From a virus, in the IMG/VR virus record IMGVR_UViG_3300006802_000534, positions 1 to 24,667 of that record: 24,667 bases of DNA; one strand, written 5' to 3'. The position numbers were made by a program, and so were the translations under genes. Below the pieces are notes generated by a model. The model was not told the origin of the DNA, did no database searches, and saw only the letters and a list, made by a program, of their open reading frames with translations. Shown piece by piece: positions 5,346 through 23,341 of the stretch (its first letter is position 1; every line of letters begins with the position of its first letter).

Positions 5346-8086
5346 TTTTCACCCTCGGCCGCTTTAAGCGCGGCCGCCTTCTCTTCTTTGCGTCGGGCCG
5401 CTCTCGCGATAGACGCTTCGAACTCGGCCTCGGCGTCGGCGAGCGCCCTCTTCCGTTTAATGTCCTCGATCGAATCGCCCTTATCAACGATCGGCCCTTT
5501 CGCGATCTGCTCGTCGAGAGTCTTCTCGCGCGCGTCAGAAACGAACCCTCGCCCCTCGCCGTCGATCTTAAACCCGATCTCTTCCTTGCGTTCTTCGATT
5601 CGTTTCTTTTCTTCGATCGCCCGGCGTCGAGCGGCCTCTTCTTGGACTGAACGATCGAAGTCGATATCGCTGTAACGGTTGTATTTACCTCGCCGGATCG
5701 CGTCCATTCGATCTTCGACGGCTTTCTCGAACCGGTCTTCTGTTGATACCTCGGCGACCTTGTCCTTCATGGATTCGCGCGCCTGCTTTGCATAACCGGC
5801 CGAGGGTCCGCCAACTACCCGAGAGCCTAGCGCCGAAAGAAACGGATCGTCGTCGTCGCCCTTGTCCGGCTTCCTGAGCGCGACACTAAACCAATCATCG
5901 ACGTCGGCCGTTTCTTGGATCGATAGTGCGACGGCCGTTCGCGGGTCTTCGTTTTTAATAAAGGCCATGATCTTTGCGAAGTCGTCCTCTTTGCCGAGTA
6001 TGACCGCGCCCGTCGTCGGGTCGACGTAGTCTTCGAGCCTCTCAGCTAACCGCTTCATGTGGTCCAGTTTAAACCCGCCGATGTCGACGGGCACTCGGTT
6101 TCCGGCCGAATAATATGTTCGAGTTCCTGAGAATATCGGGTTGCCCGTCTTCATGTGAACAAGGGTAAACGAACCGTCGCCGACGCCGTCTTCTGTCGCG
6201 ATCCCGAAGTTCCCGCTTATGACGCCGCGGACCGAAACGGCCTCGTAACCCTCGGCCCGGTTCCTGAGTACGTTAAAACTTCGTCGAGACCAGGTACCCG
6301 GCGCCGCGGGTTTTACCTTCTCGTTAACAAGGCCGAGACGGTCGCCGAGAATGTCGATCGCCTTAACGCCGTTCACCTTCTCGGCGACGAAAGACTCGGG
6401 AATCGCCGCGGCGTATTGAATTCGAAGGGTATCGAGCGCGGCGTCGAGACTGCTCTCGCCGACCTTGGTTAACCCGTTCGCGCCGAACATGCCCGAGCGA
6501 TCGAGATACTTCGCGGCGTCCTGTAGCCCTTCCTTCGAATACTCTCGGCCCTGTAGGAGCGTTCGACCGCTTGGAGTGTGTTCGAGTCGCGCTCGGCCGC
6601 TAGAGTCTTCGAGAACGCCCCACGGGCCGGCCTCGATCGCGTCTGGGTCCAAGTCGCGAGCGTTAAACGGTCCAGACTGCCAGTCGCCAGAACCGAACCG
6701 AAGCGCGGGCGGGTCTGATAGCACCAGGAATTCGCGCTGGTTGCCGTAGCGACCGTTACGCCAGCCGGGCGCGTCGACGCTCGCGAGAATTCGTCGCGTG
6801 TCCATATCCGAATAGATTACGCCGCCGTCGCGCCCGGCGAACTTCTTCGCGACGTTAACATCGTCGGTCCACGCCTCGACTGTACCGTCGATCGTGGTTT
6901 GGCTTTTTACGCCACGATATAGGCGAACCGACTCGACGCCGCGGTAATGTTCCTGCGTGTCTTCGTAGGTTCGGCGCAAGTCTGAGCGCATCTCGCCGAG
7001 ATCGCCGGGAATCGCTCGGCCTCTCGGGTTCCAGACAGCGCCGTCGAGCTCGAACTCGGTTCGCGCCGCTTCTTTGATCGCGACGGCGCCGGCCGAGTTC
7101 GAACTGTTCGTCCAATCGAGGATCAAGTCTTCGCGGCGTCGGTCGAAGGTGTCGACGGGCGCGCGTGGTGCCTGAGTCGAGGCGGTTGTCGGCGCGACTG
7201 GCGCGCGGCCGGCGAGTTCGCGGTTGCGAGCCTTCTCGGCCTCGACCCGAGCGATACCCTCTTCGACCGGCACGAGTTCGAGATCCTCGCCGTCGTCAAT
7301 CCAAGGTATTTCTTTTTCTCGGTCGTTCGGCCGGCCGGGCGGGTGCAGGAATGAGCGCCCGTCGCCGTCGACGAAGTTCTCTTCGAGATCTCGTACTTGC
7401 CCTTGCATCGGGTAGGAGTCGGAACCGGTTCGAGAGTCGAACGTTACGATCGCCGACTTGCGGACCGGTATGTCGTAAATGTCCCGGGCGTTTTTGAGCC
7501 CTTCCAAGTGCGCGCCGTTGTACGCCGTGAATAGCTCGGTTCGAAAGATTCGATCCGCTTTCCACCGTTCGGCGCCGATCGCGCTTTGTAGCGTGTCGAT
7601 AATAGGGTCGGCGAACGTCTTCGTCGCCGTCGCCGCCGAGAGTTCCTCGCGAACCCGTCGAGCGATATCCGGCCCCCAAGTCGCGAGCGAACTCGGTATT
7701 CGTTCGATCGCAGTCTGTCTTGAGAGTTCGCCAAGCGACGCCAGGTTAAGCGGCCGCGATTCCGCGCCGAACCGGTTAAGCCACGACGAAAGCTCTCGCT
7801 CGGCGTGACTCGGCGCCATTAGGAGCCCTTCGCCGAGGATCTCTTCGAGCGCGGTCTCTAGGTCGACGGTCGTTTCGAGCGCGGTTAAGCGCGCCAAGAT
7901 CTCGACCTCGCTAGCTTGCAGCGCCTCGAAGTCGGAATACTGGCGGAACTGTTGATCGTTCTCGATTCGCGCGAGCGCCCGTTCGAGCGTTCGGCCGACC
8001 CGAACCCGGGCGTCGCGCTCAAGCCTGATTAGCTGGGCGTGATGCGTTCGCGCGAGCGCGAGTATTTCGTCGGGAACTTTCGGCAT
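5342..8086 (-). CDS. MuF-like head morphogenesis protein fused to an ADP-ribosyltransferase-like domain
   Basis: This 914-residue protein is far larger than a typical gp7/MuF protein (about 250-400). Residues about 1-265 match the phage head-morphogenesis domain: helical N-terminus, then RIFRTELFTAYN (180-190) and a segment ending in FLHPPGRPNDREKEIPW (246-262), the usual conserved C-terminal loop of the family. After a linker (about 275-315), residues about 320-460 resemble an R-S-E-class ADP-ribosyltransferase: LYRG with Arg391, an AWTDDVNVAKKFAG stretch (405-418) in place of the S-T-S strand, and a Q-x-E motif (Gln450, Glu452) before FLVL. The serine position looks like Ala405, so activity is uncertain. 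Residues 460-770 are unrecognised; 770-914 are highly charged and probably coiled coil. Its start overlaps the portal stop as TAATG. MuF proteins enter the capsid, so a fused enzyme could be delivered with the DNA. Confidence 0.8.
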   Translation of the reverse strand: MPKVPDEILALARTHHAQLIRLERDARVRVGRTLERALARIENDQQFRQYSDFEALQASEVEILARLTALETTVDLETALEEILGEGLLMAPSHAERELSSWLNRFGAESRPLNLASLGELSRQTAIERIPSSLATWGPDIARRVREELSAATATKTFADPIIDTLQSAIGAERWKADRIFRTELFTAYNGAHLEGLKNARDIYDIPVRKSAIVTFDSRTGSDSYPMQGQVRDLEENFVDGDGRSFLHPPGRPNDREKEIPWIDDGEDLELVPVEEGIARVEAEKARNRELAGRAPVAPTTASTQAPRAPVDTFDRRREDLILDWTNSSNSAGAVAIKEAARTEFELDGAVWNPRGRAIPGDLGEMRSDLRRTYEDTQEHYRGVESVRLYRGVKSQTTIDGTVEAWTDDVNVAKKFAGRDGGVIYSDMDTRRILASVDAPGWRNGRYGNQREFLVLSDPPALRFGSGDWQSGPFNARDLDPDAIEAGPWGVLEDSSGRARLEHTPSGRTLLQGREYSKEGLQDAAKYLDRSGMFGANGLTKVGESSLDAALDTLRIQYAAAIPESFVAEKVNGVKAIDILGDRLGLVNEKVKPAAPGTWSRRSFNVLRNRAEGYEAVSVRGVISGNFGIATEDGVGDGSFTLVHMKTGNPIFSGTRTYYSAGNRVPVDIGGFKLDHMKRLAERLEDYVDPTTGAVILGKEDDFAKIMAFIKNEDPRTAVALSIQETADVDDWFSVALRKPDKGDDDDPFLSALGSRVVGGPSAGYAKQARESMKDKVAEVSTEDRFEKAVEDRMDAIRRGKYNRYSDIDFDRSVQEEAARRRAIEEKKRIEERKEEIGFKIDGEGRGFVSDAREKTLDEQIAKGPIVDKGDSIEDIKRKRALADAEAEFEASIARAARRKEEKAAALKAAEGEK

Positions 8087-11579: not shown

Positions 11580-11732
11580 CTAGTCGCCCGACGCCAGGCT
11601 CTCGAACTCGGCGCGGAATCGGGCGACGGCATCTTTTCGGCCGCATCCAAAATATTTGCGAGTCACCCAACAACCCGCGCGAAGTTCCGAGATATACCAA
11701 CCGCCGCTGGTCGTTAGCTTTGCGACAATCAT
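11580..11732 (-). CDS. Very small hypothetical protein upstream of terS
   Basis: A 50-residue gene starts at an ATG overlapping the previous stop as ATGA, the same coupling used throughout this genome, and ends 48 nt before terS. The peptide contains GGWYISELRAGCWVTRKYFGCGRKDAVARFRAEF-like content (read as two short blocks at residues 10-24 and 25-43), suggesting a three-strand beta sheet followed by a helix. That pattern recalls small AP2-like or integrase arm-type DNA-binding modules, but the similarity is only impressionistic. Codon choice matches neighbouring genes. No function can be assigned. Confidence 0.6.
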   Translation of the reverse strand: MIVAKLTTSGGWYISELRAGCWVTRKYFGCGRKDAVARFRAEFESLASGD

Positions 11733-11995
11733 GATCGACCCACTTCTTCGCGAAGCTCGATCGCCGCGCTCAAGTTTTCGTTAACGATATCGAGGCAAGC
11801 GGCCCGAAGCTCGGGCGAGTCCTGCACAGAATGAAACCTCGAAACGCACTTCGAAAGCGTGCTCGCGATTCGGGGCGAGTTCTTAACGAGCGACGCCGAG
11901 CCGTAGTCGTCAAACGCCGACAAGAGGTAGGCAAGACCGACGATAAGGCTCTCGGTCCCGGATTCGGTCAAGTAGTCAATAACAAGCTGATTCAT
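11729..11995 (-). CDS. Small helical hypothetical protein, first gene of the late leftward unit
   Basis: The start at ATG 11995 gives 88 residues and is preceded by AAGGATCGACC; this leader is identical over 20 nt to the one before the 65-residue gene at 13030. An upstream in-frame start would fall inside the promoter. The protein is helical with Ser/Ala/Leu-rich segments (TESLIVGLAYLLSAF, about 14-28) and no recognised domain. It is the first gene after a strong promoter-like sequence (12031-12059), and no terminator is seen between it and terS, so its promoter may drive the packaging and head genes. Function is unknown. Confidence 0.65.
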   Translation of the reverse strand: MNQLVIDYLTESGTESLIVGLAYLLSAFDDYGSASLVKNSPRIASTLSKCVSRFHSVQDSPELRAACLDIVNENLSAAIELREEVGRS

Positions 11996-12073
11996 GGTCG
12001 ATCCTTCGATTCGTTTCTCGTTGCCAAGAGAAGTTAACAAAGGTGAAACACTGCGTCAACCATTATTATTGTT
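11991..12073 (-). repeat. Promoter/leader cassette, copy 2
   Basis: Two exact 20-nt blocks (11991-12010 and 12054-12073), separated by 43 nt, are repeated at 13026-13045 and 13091-13110, separated by 45 nt. The first block includes the ribosome binding site and start codon of the downstream gene; the second includes an AT-rich upstream element and the -35 box. The sequence between differs, apart from the -10 position. The two copies lie about 1.04 kb apart in direct orientation and bracket the methyltransferase pair. Confidence 0.9.
12031..12059 (-). promoter_or_regulatory. Sigma70-like promoter ahead of the small gene and packaging/head genes
   Basis: On the minus strand a TTGACG -35 (12059-12054) is followed after exactly 17 bp by TAACTT (12036-12031). 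An AT-rich stretch AACAATAATAATGG lies directly upstream of the -35, like an UP element. The predicted start of transcription is about 28-30 nt before the ATG at 11995. The -35 and upstream element are identical to the copy at 13091-13110. Confidence 0.6.
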
Positions 12074-12075
12074 CG

Positions 12076-12831
12076 CTAGCCTAAGAGCGCTTTTTTCGCG
12101 GTGGCCACTGTGTGGGGAGTCTGGGCGTTGCCAAGGGCCGTAAGTCGGTCCACCCGATCGGGAACCCCATAAGCCATTCGATCCATTCTGGGTTCAACGG
12201 TCCAGATACTACCATCGAGAGATTGACCTGTTTCCCGATCGCGATCCGGCGTTTCACGACCGGATCTTCTGGGTTGCCTCGATTCCGAGAGTCGGCGGCC
12301 GCAGGTGTCGGAACACTCGATATCCCGCAAGGTGGCGGCGATCCAAAGCCGATCGCGCTTATGCGGTGCGCCAACGTCGGCAGCTCCCAAGATTCCCCAC
12401 TCAAGATCATACCCGAGTTCGGCCAGGTCCCCGAAAACCGTTTCGATATATCTATGTTTCCCAGACATGAGGCCGGGCACGTTCTCCAAGAATAGGAATC
12501 GCGGCACCACTTGGCGAATGACTCTAACGGTAGCCGGCCACATGTTCCGCGTGTCGTCTGCGCCCTTCTGAGTTCCCGCCGTAGTGAAAGGCTGACACGG
12601 GAAACCGGCCGAAACGACGTCGACAAGACCTCGCCAAGCCGTACCGTCGAAACTTCGCACGTCATCCCAGATCGGGCACTCGTGCAGAAGTCCATCTGAC
12701 ATTCGAGCCTGAAGGATTGCGGCCGCGTAGCGGTTCCATTCGACGCAGCACACTGTATCCCAGTCGCCATACGTCCCCAGCAGACCGCCTCCAATACCTG
12801 CAAAGAGCGCGAGTTCTTTCGGCTTATCCAC
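12076..12831 (-). CDS. DNA (cytosine-5)-methyltransferase
   Basis: This 251-residue protein starts at a GTG just after the stop of the upstream gene. It shows the C5-methyltransferase motifs in order: motif I LALFAGIGGG (8-16, SAM binding), motif IV GFPCQPF (76-82) with catalytic Cys79, motif VI LENVPG (115-120), motif VIII KRDRLWI (158-164), and motif X GNAQTPHTV near the C-terminus (about 232-240). The part between motifs VIII and X is only about 65 residues, so the target-recognition region is short. It transfers a methyl group from SAM to cytosine, and in phages such enzymes usually protect DNA from host restriction. No cognate nuclease is nearby. A second frame is also open over the same DNA but lacks any of these motifs. 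The gene lies between two copies of a promoter cassette. Confidence 0.93.
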   Translation of the reverse strand: MDKPKELALFAGIGGGLLGTYGDWDTVCCVEWNRYAAAILQARMSDGLLHECPIWDDVRSFDGTAWRGLVDVVSAGFPCQPFTTAGTQKGADDTRNMWPATVRVIRQVVPRFLFLENVPGLMSGKHRYIETVFGDLAELGYDLEWGILGAADVGAPHKRDRLWIAATLRDIECSDTCGRRLSESRQPRRSGRETPDRDRETGQSLDGSIWTVEPRMDRMAYGVPDRVDRLTALGNAQTPHTVATAKKALLG

Positions 12832-12832
12832 A

Positions 12833-13030
12833 TTAAGACCCCGCGAGCGCGTCGAGCTGTGATAGTGCGTCGGCGGCGTTTCGATAGTGATTCATGATCC
12901 CGTGGACGAAGATCATGTCGAGCGCCGGAACAACTACGATCGTACCCTTGCCCATAACCTCGCCAAAACTCGGGTGCTGACCCGGTTTAAATCCGCGCTT
13001 TTCGAGTTCTTTCTTAAAATTCTTATTCAT
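12833..13030 (-). CDS. Small hypothetical protein paired with the cytosine methyltransferase
   Basis: This 65-residue protein starts at an ATG (13030) with the AAGGATCGACC leader and ends two bases before the methyltransferase start, so both are probably made from one transcript. It begins with a basic helix (MNKNFKKELEKRGFKPG), then shows a G-K-G-T-I-V-V-V-P strand and a C-terminal helix. No known domain is recognised. The genetic pairing suggests a partner or regulator for the enzyme, but nothing in the sequence proves it. Confidence 0.6.
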   Translation of the reverse strand: MNKNFKKELEKRGFKPGQHPSFGEVMGKGTIVVVPALDMIFVHGIMNHYRNAADALSQLDALAGS

Positions 13031-13110
13031 GGTCGATCCTTCGATGTTTGTTTCCTAACGCCCCCAGAAGATAGCGACGCCCTTCTCGCCCGTCAACCAT
13101 TATTATTGTT
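13026..13110 (-). repeat. Promoter/leader cassette, copy 1
   Basis: Matches the copy at 11991-12073 in two exact 20-nt blocks: 13026-13045 (ribosome binding site and start region) and 13091-13110 (upstream element plus -35). The second block overlaps the stop codon of the XF1762-like gene, which ends in TAA at 13103-13105. Confidence 0.9.
13068..13096 (-). promoter_or_regulatory. Sigma70-like promoter for the small gene and cytosine methyltransferase
   Basis: Minus-strand TTGACG (13096-13091), 17 bp, then TATCTT (13073-13068). An AT-rich element lies directly upstream. The -10 is closer to consensus than in the second copy. Predicted transcription start is about 30 nt before the ATG at 13030. 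Confidence 0.65.
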
Positions 13111-13555
13111 TAAGTTGAAGCGACCAGCGCGTCTTGACCTCGGGCCTTTCGGCGTTCTCACGATCACGTGAAACGCGGCCCCAGTTTCCGCCGCCCGCCT
13201 GTCCGTCGCTCACCCAGTTTGACGCCCTGAGGCTCGCGCCGCCCTCTTCTGGCAACGTATATGTGACGATCTTCTCATAGCCCATGCTCTTTGCGATCCT
13301 CACCGCGGCACCGTAAAGCATAGAGCAAGCGTTACGTGCGCCGTCAGTGGCAACGCGCGTAACTTCAAGCGTGAACCCGTCGTCAAGCATTCGCGCAACT
13401 GGTCGGCCGACAATGGCAACGCCTCGGATCTCACCGGCCTCGTCAGTCACTGACAAAACGAAGACCGCGCCGGCCGGAGCCCTTAAGTGTCGGTGATGGT
13501 CTGCGACGAAAGCCTTTGCGGCTTTATGTGTGATCGGGCTTAGCTTGATTCGCAT
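13103..13555 (-). CDS. XF1762-like (GNAT-fold) phage protein
   Basis: This 150-residue protein resembles the XF1762 family common in phages of Gram-negative hosts. Family-like features are KAAKAFVADHHRHL (residues 12-25), the strand FVLSVTDEAGEIRGVAIVGRP (32-52 region, read in parts), a core V-T-R-V-A-T-D-G segment (about 65-72), the helix CSMLYGAAVRIAKSMGY and a C-terminal G-G-N-W-G-R-V/R-W motif. The layout is that of an acetyltransferase-like fold with a candidate acyl-CoA loop, but the catalytic role is unknown for the family. It is the last gene of the early leftward operon, and its stop codon overlaps the next promoter's upstream element. An AGGTAGGT ribosome binding site precedes its ATG. 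Confidence 0.75.
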   Translation of the reverse strand: MRIKLSPITHKAAKAFVADHHRHLRAPAGAVFVLSVTDEAGEIRGVAIVGRPVARMLDDGFTLEVTRVATDGARNACSMLYGAAVRIAKSMGYEKIVTYTLPEEGGASLRASNWVSDGQAGGGNWGRVSRDRENAERPEVKTRWSLQLKQ

Positions 13556-13569
13556 GTACCTACCTCGCT

Positions 13570-14271
13570 TTAGATCTCGAATCTAGGCCAGGTCGTGAGC
13601 GTTCGCCCCTTCTCGCCGTGCTCTCGATCCCAAATAAACCATGCAGACGTGCAGTTATTCTGGTTCCTCGCGTTGATATAGTGAACCCTCGGGAGAATTA
13701 GGATCTCGGTCGGCGGATCGTCGAATAGGATCTGAGCCCGGTCTTTGCACGGTTCGAGCATCGTTAACCGCAAGAGCATCGCGACCGAAGCGCCCGTCGC
13801 TAACATCTTCTTAACGAAGTCGCTCGCCATAACGGTTCGCCCGTCGATCTTGATAACGAAAGGCGGGTTCGAGACGTACCAGTCGACGCCGGCGAAGGGT
13901 TCTTCGACCAGGAAGTCGCGCGCCGGCATATCGGCGCCCCTGCCTCGGTCTCGCGACCAGTGGAACGAATCGGCGCCCGGGTCGATATCCGTTCCGAGGT
14001 AGTGCGTTACGGGCTCGTGCATTCGAAGCGCGCGACCGATCCAGTCGGCCCCACAGCAAGGCTCGTGCACTTTGCCGGCGAGACGGTCGCCGAGGTACGC
14101 GAGAAGAGGCTCGGTCGCCGAGACGGGCGTGTAATACCGATCGAGAGAGTCGCGCTTCGACTTCTTCTTCTTTGGTTTCTCGACCTCGGCGTCGGCCGCG
14201 CAATAGGAGCACGGCCGCTCGAATATTTCACGAGAGCACTTGTCGCAGTGGTCGATCTCGTATTCGTTCAT
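13570..14271 (-). CDS. Putative N6-adenine-type DNA methyltransferase with N-terminal zinc knuckle
   Basis: The ATG at 14271 shares ATGA with the upstream stop and gives 233 residues; a GTG at 14280 in frame is an alternative. Residues 9-24 carry Cys9, Cys12, Cys21 and Cys24 in a C-x2-C-x8-C-x2-C arrangement, likely binding zinc. After a Lys-rich linker comes D-R-Y-Y-T-P (44-49), a HEPCCGADWIG motif I (69-79) for SAM binding, Y-L-G-T-D-I-D (91-97), and the catalytic motif IV S-N-P-P-F (134-138), typical of amino-methyltransferases. A C-terminal alpha/beta half follows. It probably modifies phage DNA, and may give protection together with the cytosine enzyme. The target base is inferred from S-N-P-P-F only; a protein or RNA substrate is not excluded. 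Confidence 0.75.
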   Translation of the reverse strand: MNEYEIDHCDKCSREIFERPCSYCAADAEVEKPKKKKSKRDSLDRYYTPVSATEPLLAYLGDRLAGKVHEPCCGADWIGRALRMHEPVTHYLGTDIDPGADSFHWSRDRGRGADMPARDFLVEEPFAGVDWYVSNPPFVIKIDGRTVMASDFVKKMLATGASVAMLLRLTMLEPCKDRAQILFDDPPTEILILPRVHYINARNQNNCTSAWFIWDREHGEKGRTLTTWPRFEI

Positions 14272-14480
14272 TTTACCCACCTTCCGTTCTTAAATTCTCG
14301 AAGCGATTCGCCGGGCTCGTCAATCCAGTCGACTGTCACAATATTAATTGATCCGCACTTTACACACGTAATCTTACCGACGTCGCGATCGGCCACAACG
14401 CCGATCCAGATCGAATAACACTCACGACAAACGAGCGTGATAGCGTTCCAGCCTATTCGGCCGACGACTTCGCCGCTCAT
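14268..14480 (-). CDS. Small zinc-ribbon protein
   Basis: This 70-residue protein has two Cys pairs, C-R-E-C (residues about 18-21) and C-V-K-C (39-42), separated by about 17 residues, as in a minimal zinc ribbon. Short beta strands flank the pairs. It overlaps both neighbours by ATGA, the characteristic coupling of this operon. Small zinc ribbons of this kind bind nucleic acids or partner proteins in many phages. No specific function can be claimed. Confidence 0.6.
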   Translation of the reverse strand: MSGEVVGRIGWNAITLVCRECYSIWIGVVADRDVGKITCVKCGSINIVTVDWIDEPGESLREFKNGRWVK

Positions 14481-15678: not shown

Positions 15679-15726
15679 GTTCTGACCCTCGTTTTTGCGC
15701 CAGCTCGGCCGGCGCGGTTGTAATAT

Positions 15727-16906: not shown

Positions 16907-17401
16907 CTACTTGATTACGGTTCTATTCCACTGTGTTAACGTTTCGGCCTCTTCGAGAATCGCCACGTCGACCGCGCCGGACTTGAACGCCATTAACTCG
17001 ACTTGATCGAAGAGTTCGTCGCCGGACCGATTAGGCGCCGTCCCGAACTCTTCGAAGTATCGAATGACGTGTCTGGCGTCGATCCTGAATCGCTCGCGCT
17101 TGACCTCGTGCCGAACGTCGAGCCCGGCCGCTTTGCGATCGAGAGCAACGCGACAGAGTCGAACGTTGCCACCGTAACCATTTTCGCACCTAACGTCTAG
17201 CAGGTTGTCGGGCGATATCATGCGGCCGAGGTAGTGACAGCAAAAGTCAATATGGTCCGCCAGACTGTACGTCGGCAAGTTCCCGCGCTTCGACTTCGAG
17301 ACCGCGCCGGCCGCGGTTCGGTTTGGTTGATACAGCTCGGCGAGCCAGGTCTCGATCTGTTCGGCGATCTCGCGTTCGTCGGCCTTGGTTGTTACTCGCA
17401 T
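16907..17401 (-). CDS. Hypothetical early protein
   Basis: This 164-residue protein overlaps the upstream regulator gene by 10 nt. It has an N-terminal helix (DEREIAEQIETWLAELYQP), a middle part with two Cys near H-I-D-F-C-C-H-Y-L, a C-E-N-G-Y-G-G-N-V-R-L-C-R strand, and basic segments (DVRHEVKRERFRIDARHVIRYF, about 98-119). No fold or catalytic pattern is recognised. The location between two XRE genes suggests a role in early control, but only by association. Confidence 0.55.
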   Translation of the reverse strand: MRVTTKADEREIAEQIETWLAELYQPNRTAAGAVSKSKRGNLPTYSLADHIDFCCHYLGRMISPDNLLDVRCENGYGGNVRLCRVALDRKAAGLDVRHEVKRERFRIDARHVIRYFEEFGTAPNRSGDELFDQVELMAFKSGAVDVAILEEAETLTQWNRTVIK

Positions 17402-17727
17402 CGTAGTCGAGCCTCTTCTTTGGCCTTCCTCGACTGGTAGCGCGCTTCGTCTCGCTCGCTCAACGGGTAAAGCTCGGCGACCAGTGCGTCGATCCGTTGT
17501 CGGTTCGCTTCACGCTCGGCGAACGCTCGGTCGAATACGTCGCCGGCGCAATCGGCGATAATGTCGAGCACGGGTCGCTTGCCGGTCTCAAGAAGCGCAA
17601 CGTAGGATTGCGAAAGTTCCAGCCTCTCGGCAAGTTCGATCTGCGTCAGTCCGGCTTCGAGTCGGCATTCGCGAAGTGCAGCTATCACGCGGGCGCGCGC
17701 GAAGCGGGGCTCACTGTTTTTTGTCAT
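17392..17727 (-). CDS. XRE-family transcriptional regulator
   Basis: This 111-residue protein carries an N-terminal helix-turn-helix (residues about 14-55): ALRECRLEAGLTQIELAERLELSQSYVALLETGKRPVLDII, recognised in pieces by L-T-Q-x-E-L-A-x-x-L and S-Q-S-Y-V-x-x-x-E-T-G-K-R. The C-terminal half is an Arg/Glu-rich helical tail that may support dimerisation. It is coupled by ATGA to the upstream gene. With the second XRE gene at 16676 it forms a pair of regulators in one early operon, which is typical for a phage switch. Targets are unknown. Confidence 0.88.
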   Translation of the reverse strand: MTKNSEPRFARARVIAALRECRLEAGLTQIELAERLELSQSYVALLETGKRPVLDIIADCAGDVFDRAFAEREANRQRIDALVAELYPLSERDEARYQSRKAKEEARLRCE

Positions 17728-18889: not shown

Positions 18890-18953
18890 CGATAGGATCG
18901 TAACCGTGAAACTAGCTAATCAGGCTGTTTCTGTAATAAACGAGGGTCAAAAA

Positions 18954-19696: not shown

Positions 19697-19853
19697 GAAA
19701 CGAATAACGACGATCGAAAAACTGAGAACCCGGCGCGAGTATCGAAAGACTTTAGCGCGACTTCGCGCCGAACATGAAAAACAAAAGCAACAAGAGAAGC
19801 GGCGAATCGCCGAACTACAATCGGGCCGAGAGGCTGAAAACGAGGGTCAATAA
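19686..19853 (+). CDS. Short basic coiled-coil protein
   Basis: A 55-residue gene starts 11 nt before the previous stop and ends TAA overlapping the next ATG (TAATG). The product is a single highly charged helix (start MRIKKRITTIEKLRTRRE), rich in Arg, Lys, Glu and Gln, with clear coiled-coil character. It resembles small helical phage proteins that bind nucleic acid or a partner. The tight coupling on both sides and matching codon use support it as a real gene. Its last codons also supply the GAGGGTCA ribosome binding site of the exonuclease gene. Confidence 0.6.
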   Translation: MRIKKRITTIEKLRTRREYRKTLARLRAEHEKQKQQEKRRIAELQSGREAENEGQ

Positions 19854-22850: not shown

Positions 22851-22879
22851 TTGACCCGAACTAAAAGGGCAACTATAAA
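22851..22879 (+). promoter_or_regulatory. Sigma70-like promoter for the rightward recombination/replication genes
   Basis: TTGACC (22851-22856), 17 bp, then TATAAA (22874-22879), the best -10 in the window. A second TTGACA lies 8 nt upstream (22843-22848). Predicted transcription start is about 22886, leaving a leader of roughly 40 nt before the ATG at 22925. The divergent primase gene lies 105 nt to the left; no comparably good promoter was found for it. Confidence 0.7.
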
Positions 22880-22924
22880 CGGTGGGCATTGAGAGAACTC
22901 AAACCGCATACCGAGGATCGGAAC

Positions 22925-23341
22925 ATGCCAAGATTCAACGCACATCATTTAGCACAATCGCCGGTCGACTGGCTCGATTCCGTCGAGATCAACGTCGGCG
23001 ACCGAGTCGAAGCTATCGTTCGACGCAAGCGCGACGAAAGACTTCGAACCACGATCTCGACCATGCGATCGACCATGATCGTTCTCGAAGTCGGCGCCGA
23101 CTTCATTATCGCGAGAGACGAAGAGTCGGTCGACGATATTTTTCGCCGGCGCATGATCGTCAAGTTCGAGCTAACGCTCGTCGACATATCAAACGAATTT
23201 ACAGGCAGGGGCGCGCGAGTCGAGTTCTACGGGCTCGCCGGGCCGAAAGCCGAATACTGGGCCGCCGACCGTATCGTCGGGCTCGTGCGTCGCACTGAGC
23301 GACCCGAAACCACAACCGCTAACCAAGAGGCTGGGCAATGA
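22925..23341 (+). CDS. Hypothetical early protein
   Basis: The ATG at 22925 has GAGGATCGGAAC upstream and gives 138 residues; a TTG at 22889 in frame would start within the leader. The protein looks like a small alpha/beta or beta-barrel domain: VEINVGDRVEAIVRRK (about residues 20-35), STMIVLEVGADFIIAR (46-61) and IVKFELTLVDI strands, then a basic C-terminus. No family is recognised. It is the first gene behind promoter 22851-22879 and couples by ATGA to the next gene, so it belongs to the recombination/replication transcript. Confidence 0.6.
   Translation: MPRFNAHHLAQSPVDWLDSVEINVGDRVEAIVRRKRDERLRTTISTMRSTMIVLEVGADFIIARDEESVDDIFRRRMIVKFELTLVDISNEFTGRGARVEFYGLAGPKAEYWAADRIVGLVRRTERPETTTANQEAGQ

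Follow-up and report, generated by a model that had tools for sequence, protein, structure and literature searches.

The occurrence of two sequence blocks of exactly 20 nt, each present twice around a methyltransferase gene of an uncultured phage, raised the question of what maintains a repeated promoter-like element and ribosome-binding site at this locus. The window, the whole stretch of DNA analysed, was the entire metagenomic virus record IMGVR_UViG_3300006802_000534 (24,667 bases) and is probably a genome fragment. A single close relative was found in IMG/VR (IMGVR_UViG_3300008255_000023; 45,487 bases), which is apparently complete since it has a 123-base terminal repeat. In the original prediction, the repeats were interpreted as the borders of a moron-type cassette, gained or duplicated with its own promoter, which recombination between the copies could delete cleanly. 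The features of the locus were as follows.

13570-14280, minus strand: probable adenine methyltransferase with an NPPF motif, left border, common to the relative (phrog_799, 4e-30)
13103-13555, minus strand: 150-aa Mom-like DNA modification gene that the relative lacks (phrog_1384, 1e-35, tblastn)
13023-13111, minus strand: leader 1, whole; a 93.4% homology island with non-homologous flanks
13091-13110, minus strand: leader 1 module A, comprising the AT-rich box AACAATAATAATGG and the -35 hexamer TTGACG; exact repeat, identical in the relative
13068-13073, minus strand: leader 1 -10-like hexamer TATCTT, 17 nt from the -35 hexamer
13026-13045, minus strand: leader 1 module S, ATCGAAGGATCGACC, including the ATG of the 65-aa ORF; exact repeat
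12833-13030, minus strand: 65-aa ORF, first gene after leader 1
12076-12831, minus strand: cytosine-C5 methyltransferase, 251 aa, motifs I-VIII and X (PF00145, 2e-35; phrog_363, 2e-59; TIGR00675 above the cut-off)
12081-12833, minus strand: overlapping +1-frame ORF, up to 250 aa, with the motif-IX-like EWIEWLMGFPIGWTDL; candidate second methyltransferase subunit (phrog_1008, 5e-21)
12054-12073, minus strand: leader 2 module A; exact repeat
12031-12036, minus strand: leader 2 -10-like hexamer TAACTT, 17 nt from the -35 hexamer
11991-12010, minus strand: leader 2 module S, including the ATG of the 88-aa ORF; exact repeat
11729-11995, minus strand: 88-aa ORF behind leader 2, not in the relative
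11580-11732, minus strand: 50-aa ORF, with the right breakpoint in its last codons
10965-11531, minus strand: terminase small subunit, conserved right border (phrog_6299, 1e-7)

The block pairs were confirmed in direct orientation on the minus strand: one block (AACAATAATAATGGTTGACG) occupies 13110-13091 and 12073-12054, the other (ATCGAAGGATCGACCATGAA) 13045-13026 and 12010-11991. With up to 3 mismatches allowed, the window contained no further copies of either block, and none were found in 100 dinucleotide shuffles (chance expectation, 0). As predicted, the 65-aa ORF (13030-12833) and the methyltransferase gene (12831-12076) lay exactly between the pairs, the methyltransferase stop falling 2 nt before the second module A block. 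Each leader consisted of AACAATAATAATGG-TTGACG, 17 nt, TATCTT (leader 1) or TAACTT (leader 2), a C, a 5' UTR with GAAACnA and ATCGAAGGATCGACC-ATG-AA, a layout that can be summarised as AACAATAATAATGG plus TTGAC-N18-TAnCTTC followed by the start-associated TCGARGGATCGACC-ATG. The -10 hexamers matched the E. coli standard poorly, and leader 2 did not pass a simple sigma-70 scan. The window leaders contained no terminator-like stem-loop, and a comparison of the window with Rfam gave zero matches. A candidate operator dyad in box A (AACAATAA/TAATGGTT) had 6/8 half-site matches, which was too weak to claim. The Mom-like gene ended in a TAA codon (13105-13103) inside module A; by supplying this stop, module A may allow upstream genes to join the leader without a long fusion.

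Comparison of the two leaders detected identity at 40/40 block positions and 19/43 intervening positions (Fisher P = 2e-9), a contrast that makes a recent neutral duplication impossible. The predicted divergence between the blocks held in part: the 17-nt promoter spacing was kept, but the intervening sequences were not wholly unrelated, as both TAnCTTC (the -10 hexamer and the following C) and the GAAACnA stretch were shared. The 17-nt promoter spacer was the most diverged part, with differences at 14/17 positions, whereas colinear DNA of the window and the relative was mostly 91 to 96% identical (approximately 4 to 9% divergence in most blocks). As the spacer divergence was far above this orthologous divergence, the leader copies most likely predate the split between the phages. 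The direct orientation of the copies and the location of the genes exactly between them would fit a recent duplication of the neighbouring leader that brought in the 65-aa gene and the methyltransferase as a moron, subject to clean excision by inter-copy recombination, but the spacer differences indicated that any duplication was not recent and we consider this account quite unlikely. Duplication of one leader by the metagenomic assembler, conceivable for a metagenomic virus record, is extremely improbable given that the two leaders differ in both spacer and UTR and that an independent contig has a leader 1 ortholog and two further copies.

TerL was 96% identical between the window and the relative, while its best matches among known phages were at or below 28%, and a TerL scan of 84,980 genomes detected no prophage or host relatives. 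The promoter pattern had nine matches in the same genomes, scattered and chance-like. A 16-mer scan of IMG/VR returned 56 loci, of which the new ones were unrelated to the window by tblastx and were set aside.

The locus borders, the adenine methyltransferase on the left (13570, minus strand) and the terminase small subunit on the right, were common to both phages. Between these borders, only leader 1 (13023-13111, 89 bp) was homologous, with 93.4% identity over 91 columns. Upstream of this leader, the Mom-like gene intervenes in the window, while in the relative the adenine methyltransferase is followed directly by the leader. Downstream come the 65-aa ORF, the C5-methyltransferase, leader 2 and the 88-aa and 50-aa ORFs in the window; the corresponding segment of the relative contains ORFs of 101 and 108 aa (the latter phrog_9437), between which lies a hairpin with module S. 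The cargo proteins of the two phages were unrelated, and the relative lacked the 65-aa gene, the methyltransferase, the Mom-like gene and the 88-aa ORF. Leader 1, which had breakpoints at both edges, was therefore a homology island between non-homologous genes, retained through changes on either side, and this finding supported the proposal of a cassette equipped with its own promoter. No such support was obtained for clean deletion between the copies. Absence of the 12076-13090 segment, with breakpoints in the 20-nt blocks, had been proposed as a signature of such an event; both genes were indeed missing from the relative, but replaced by unrelated cargo, without a junction of leader 1 to the 88-aa gene, and the right breakpoint lay at approximately 11610, within the final codons of the 50-aa ORF and outside leader 2 and the 20-nt blocks. 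The excised-moron account, which the absence of both genes would otherwise favour, is further weakened by these observations.

Breakpoints were located within 30 bp of a leader element in 4/17 cases versus 0.43 expected (P about 0.001; one genome pair), an excess that is suggestive only, because exchanges favour gene borders anyway, and that is thin, because there is only one close relative. The conservation was confined to functional positions and module S was also present at conserved genes without a breakpoint, such as that at 22925. Both observations are in keeping with functional convergence only, whereby a shared promoter and ribosome site would be kept by selection for co-regulation with no role in exchange, and breakpoints would fall at gene borders for the usual reasons. 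This account appears unlikely, if worth bearing in mind, since leader 1 has breakpoints on both edges and the sharing of parts of the 5' UTR beyond the promoter and ribosome site suggests common descent of the leaders.

The explanation that we favour, and regard as reasonably probable, is that the block pairs represent the conserved portions of a lineage-specific, reusable leader that heads exchangeable accessory genes and possibly also provides homology for swapping them. Module A (AT-rich box, -35 hexamer, 17-nt spacer and TAnCTTC -10 region) would start transcription and module S (TCGARGGATCGACC) would set the translation start. The leader would head small groups of exchangeable accessory genes, which in the window are largely concerned with DNA modification. 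With the ribosome site and a promoter or regulator site both under purifying selection, the blocks would stay fixed while the spacer and 5' UTR drift. Since similar leaders are present at several locations, they may offer short stretches of homology through which phage recombination could swap cargo; and because the relative keeps the leader while both flanking genes differ, the leaders look like regulatory docking points for such swapping. The phage has an AAA_24 gene, which we take to be a Sak4-type annealing protein, and its DUF669 neighbour in the relative is presumably SSB-like. Sak4 and its SSB carry out single-strand annealing (PMC5928155), and use of short, diverged homology, a property that Sak4 might share, is described for Rad52-like phage recombinases (PMC3945230). 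This phage offers a concrete, testable case of a leader staying in place while the surrounding genes are exchanged, and a retained leader could let newly arrived DNA-modification genes be expressed at once.

A weight-matrix scan detected module A at five sites, two in the window (13110 and 12073, both minus strand) and three in the relative (41042 and 42965, minus strand; 14162, plus strand). These sites scored 52 to 66 bits with a matrix derived from the same five sites, compared to 9.3 for the next best real site and a maximum of 10.7 in five shuffles. The stretch of 14 nt that precedes the -35 hexamer was exactly conserved in 4/5 copies, which exceeds general AT-richness and suggests a protein site at box A; small HTH proteins are encoded by the phage. 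Among 2.9 million viral contigs, ATAATANTNGTTGAC-N17-19-TANCTTC matched only the relative, and exact-pattern scans of IMG/VR did not detect the leader pattern outside this lineage.

Module S (CGARGGATCG before ATG, with one base change allowed) was present at 10 starts in the two genomes, at least four of them without module A. A promoter-like site, TTGACC-17-TATAAA, with CGAGGATCGGAAC before the ATG at 22925, was observed at 22851-22927 on the plus strand of the window and was conserved in the relative; this site, likely an early promoter, differs from the leaders in that it is without box A. The third module, H, occurred as three copies of CGCAAG-N6-GCTTTTC-NN-GTGTAA in the relative (40625 and 42889, minus strand; 14583, plus strand), with differing, self-complementary stems of fixed geometry that were terminator-like yet lay directly upstream of genes or starts. 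These hairpins were found in the relative only, with none elsewhere in IMG/VR. The modules occurred in different combinations, A, H and S at 42965 (minus strand) and H and S at 40625 (minus strand) of the relative, and A and S in the window leaders. A second ribosome-site family, AAACGAGGGTCA before ATG, was present in the window at 15697 and 18438 (minus strand) and at 18936 and 19833 (plus strand); the AAACGAGGGTCA start at 19853 was a synteny breakpoint, the relative having the same gene with a different leader.

Two compensatory changes were detected among 9 sequences of a potential module S hairpin, but gene-start hairpins outside the module S family were not significantly enriched (4/66, P = 0.10), so the hairpin is to be taken as a possibility. 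A more elaborate scheme would be a kit particular to this lineage (box A, hairpin module H and start module S), freely combined before swappable counter-restriction genes, in which a dedicated phage regulator would read box A and module S would form a small RNA hairpin (UCGA-RGGA-UCGA) with the Shine-Dalgarno sequence in its loop as a translational operator. We hold this scheme to be distinctly doubtful.

The leader family is a fresh instance of an already known principle, its closest counterparts being the PeSL cassettes of T4 and the start-associated sequences (SAS) of cluster K mycobacteriophages. The PeSLs are reportedly to be credited to Arbiol et al. in 2010 and Comeau et al. in 2014. 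According to PMC4503421, the PeSLs of T4-like phages are short promoter cassettes that recur within a plastic region and are linked to gene shuffling. The leaders described here similarly lie at the borders of exchanged genes in a plastic region (one genome pair). In PeSLs, however, the promoter is joined to a stem-loop, whereas the window leaders are without one and module H is present in some relative leaders only; the sequence is also unrelated and the phage group is probably a different one, and the complete genome of the relative, at 45 kb, is far below the T4 genome size. The SAS are repeated ribosome-site sequences whose length exceeds what Shine-Dalgarno pairing can account for (Pope et al. 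2011, PMC3203893); they adjoin the starts of differing genes, about half have a second upstream element at a variable spacing (ESAS), and they are special to one phage group (PMC3203893). Module S resembles them in being located directly upstream of the starts of unrelated genes, 10 in two genomes. The SAS/ESAS consensus GGGATAGGAGCCC and 17-bp inverted repeats (PMC3203893) were absent from the leaders, in which module S is TCGARGGATCGACC; moreover, the upstream element here is a promoter box and the copies are few. The leaders belong to neither the PeSL nor the SAS/ESAS family, given their unrelated sequences and, for those of the window, the lack of a stem-loop. In lambdoid phages, morons and boundary sequences place an accessory gene and a dedicated promoter between conserved genes. 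The present locus is comparable in having an accessory gene with its own putative promoter and conserved genes on either side, but here it is the leader that is repeated, and it remains in place when the cargo changes.

The recognisable cargo in the window was DNA modification genes (Mom-like and C5-methyltransferase), adjoining the conserved adenine methyltransferase, and the gene families suggest a likely anti-restriction role; the 65-aa ORF had zero Pfam or PHROG matches. Within the C5-methyltransferase frame, the PF00145 match ended at residue 178 and the motif X-like RVDRLTALGNAQTP was present, but motif IX was absent. The motif-IX-like EWIEWLMGFPIGWTDL was found only in the +1 frame, which is open for 250 codons from an ATG at 12833. 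When synonymous codons were shuffled in 14 phage methyltransferase genes, including that of the window, 60.4 ± 5.6 interior stops were expected in the +1 frame and 2 were observed, compared to 198 observed and 176 expected in the +2 frame; these numbers are not fully independent, as several of the homologs are related (three Vibrio phages). Alternative-frame similarity exceeded that of shuffles, with z values of 36 for the +1 frame (BLOSUM) and 20 for the +2 frame. For Pseudomonas phage phPA-G, the annotated protein is the +1 frame and not the methyltransferase frame. A sequencing frameshift was ruled out as the origin of the +1 frame because distant phages keep both frames open. This evidence of selection suggests that the +1 ORF with motif IX is a real coding sequence.

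The methyltransferase and the putative +1 product would fit a split enzyme of the M.EcoHK31I kind, whose chains are encoded in overlapping frames. M.EcoHK31I consists of two polypeptides, a large chain with motifs I-VIII and X and a small chain with motif IX (PMC3404938). Similarly, the window has a large chain with motifs I-VIII and X and has motif IX in another frame; however, in the phages most of the second ORFs extend across almost the entire gene, and the phage pair is a putative one. A second conserved protein thus appears to be hidden in many phage cytosine methyltransferase genes and is sometimes annotated in place of the enzyme, and the overlapping ORF has to be considered whenever these anti-restriction enzymes are assayed for activity.

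Two further differences between the genomes were observed away from the locus. Approximately 1.4 kb within a large head-morphogenesis-like ORF of 914 aa (window 5756-7127, minus strand) was absent from the relative, which has a 343-aa ORF, a difference that represents a domain swap or an insertion. Approximately 508 bp of the window (17150-17658) was missing in the relative, in which the start of an HTH gene (17727, minus strand) appears to be fused to the end of a 164-aa gene (17401, minus strand).
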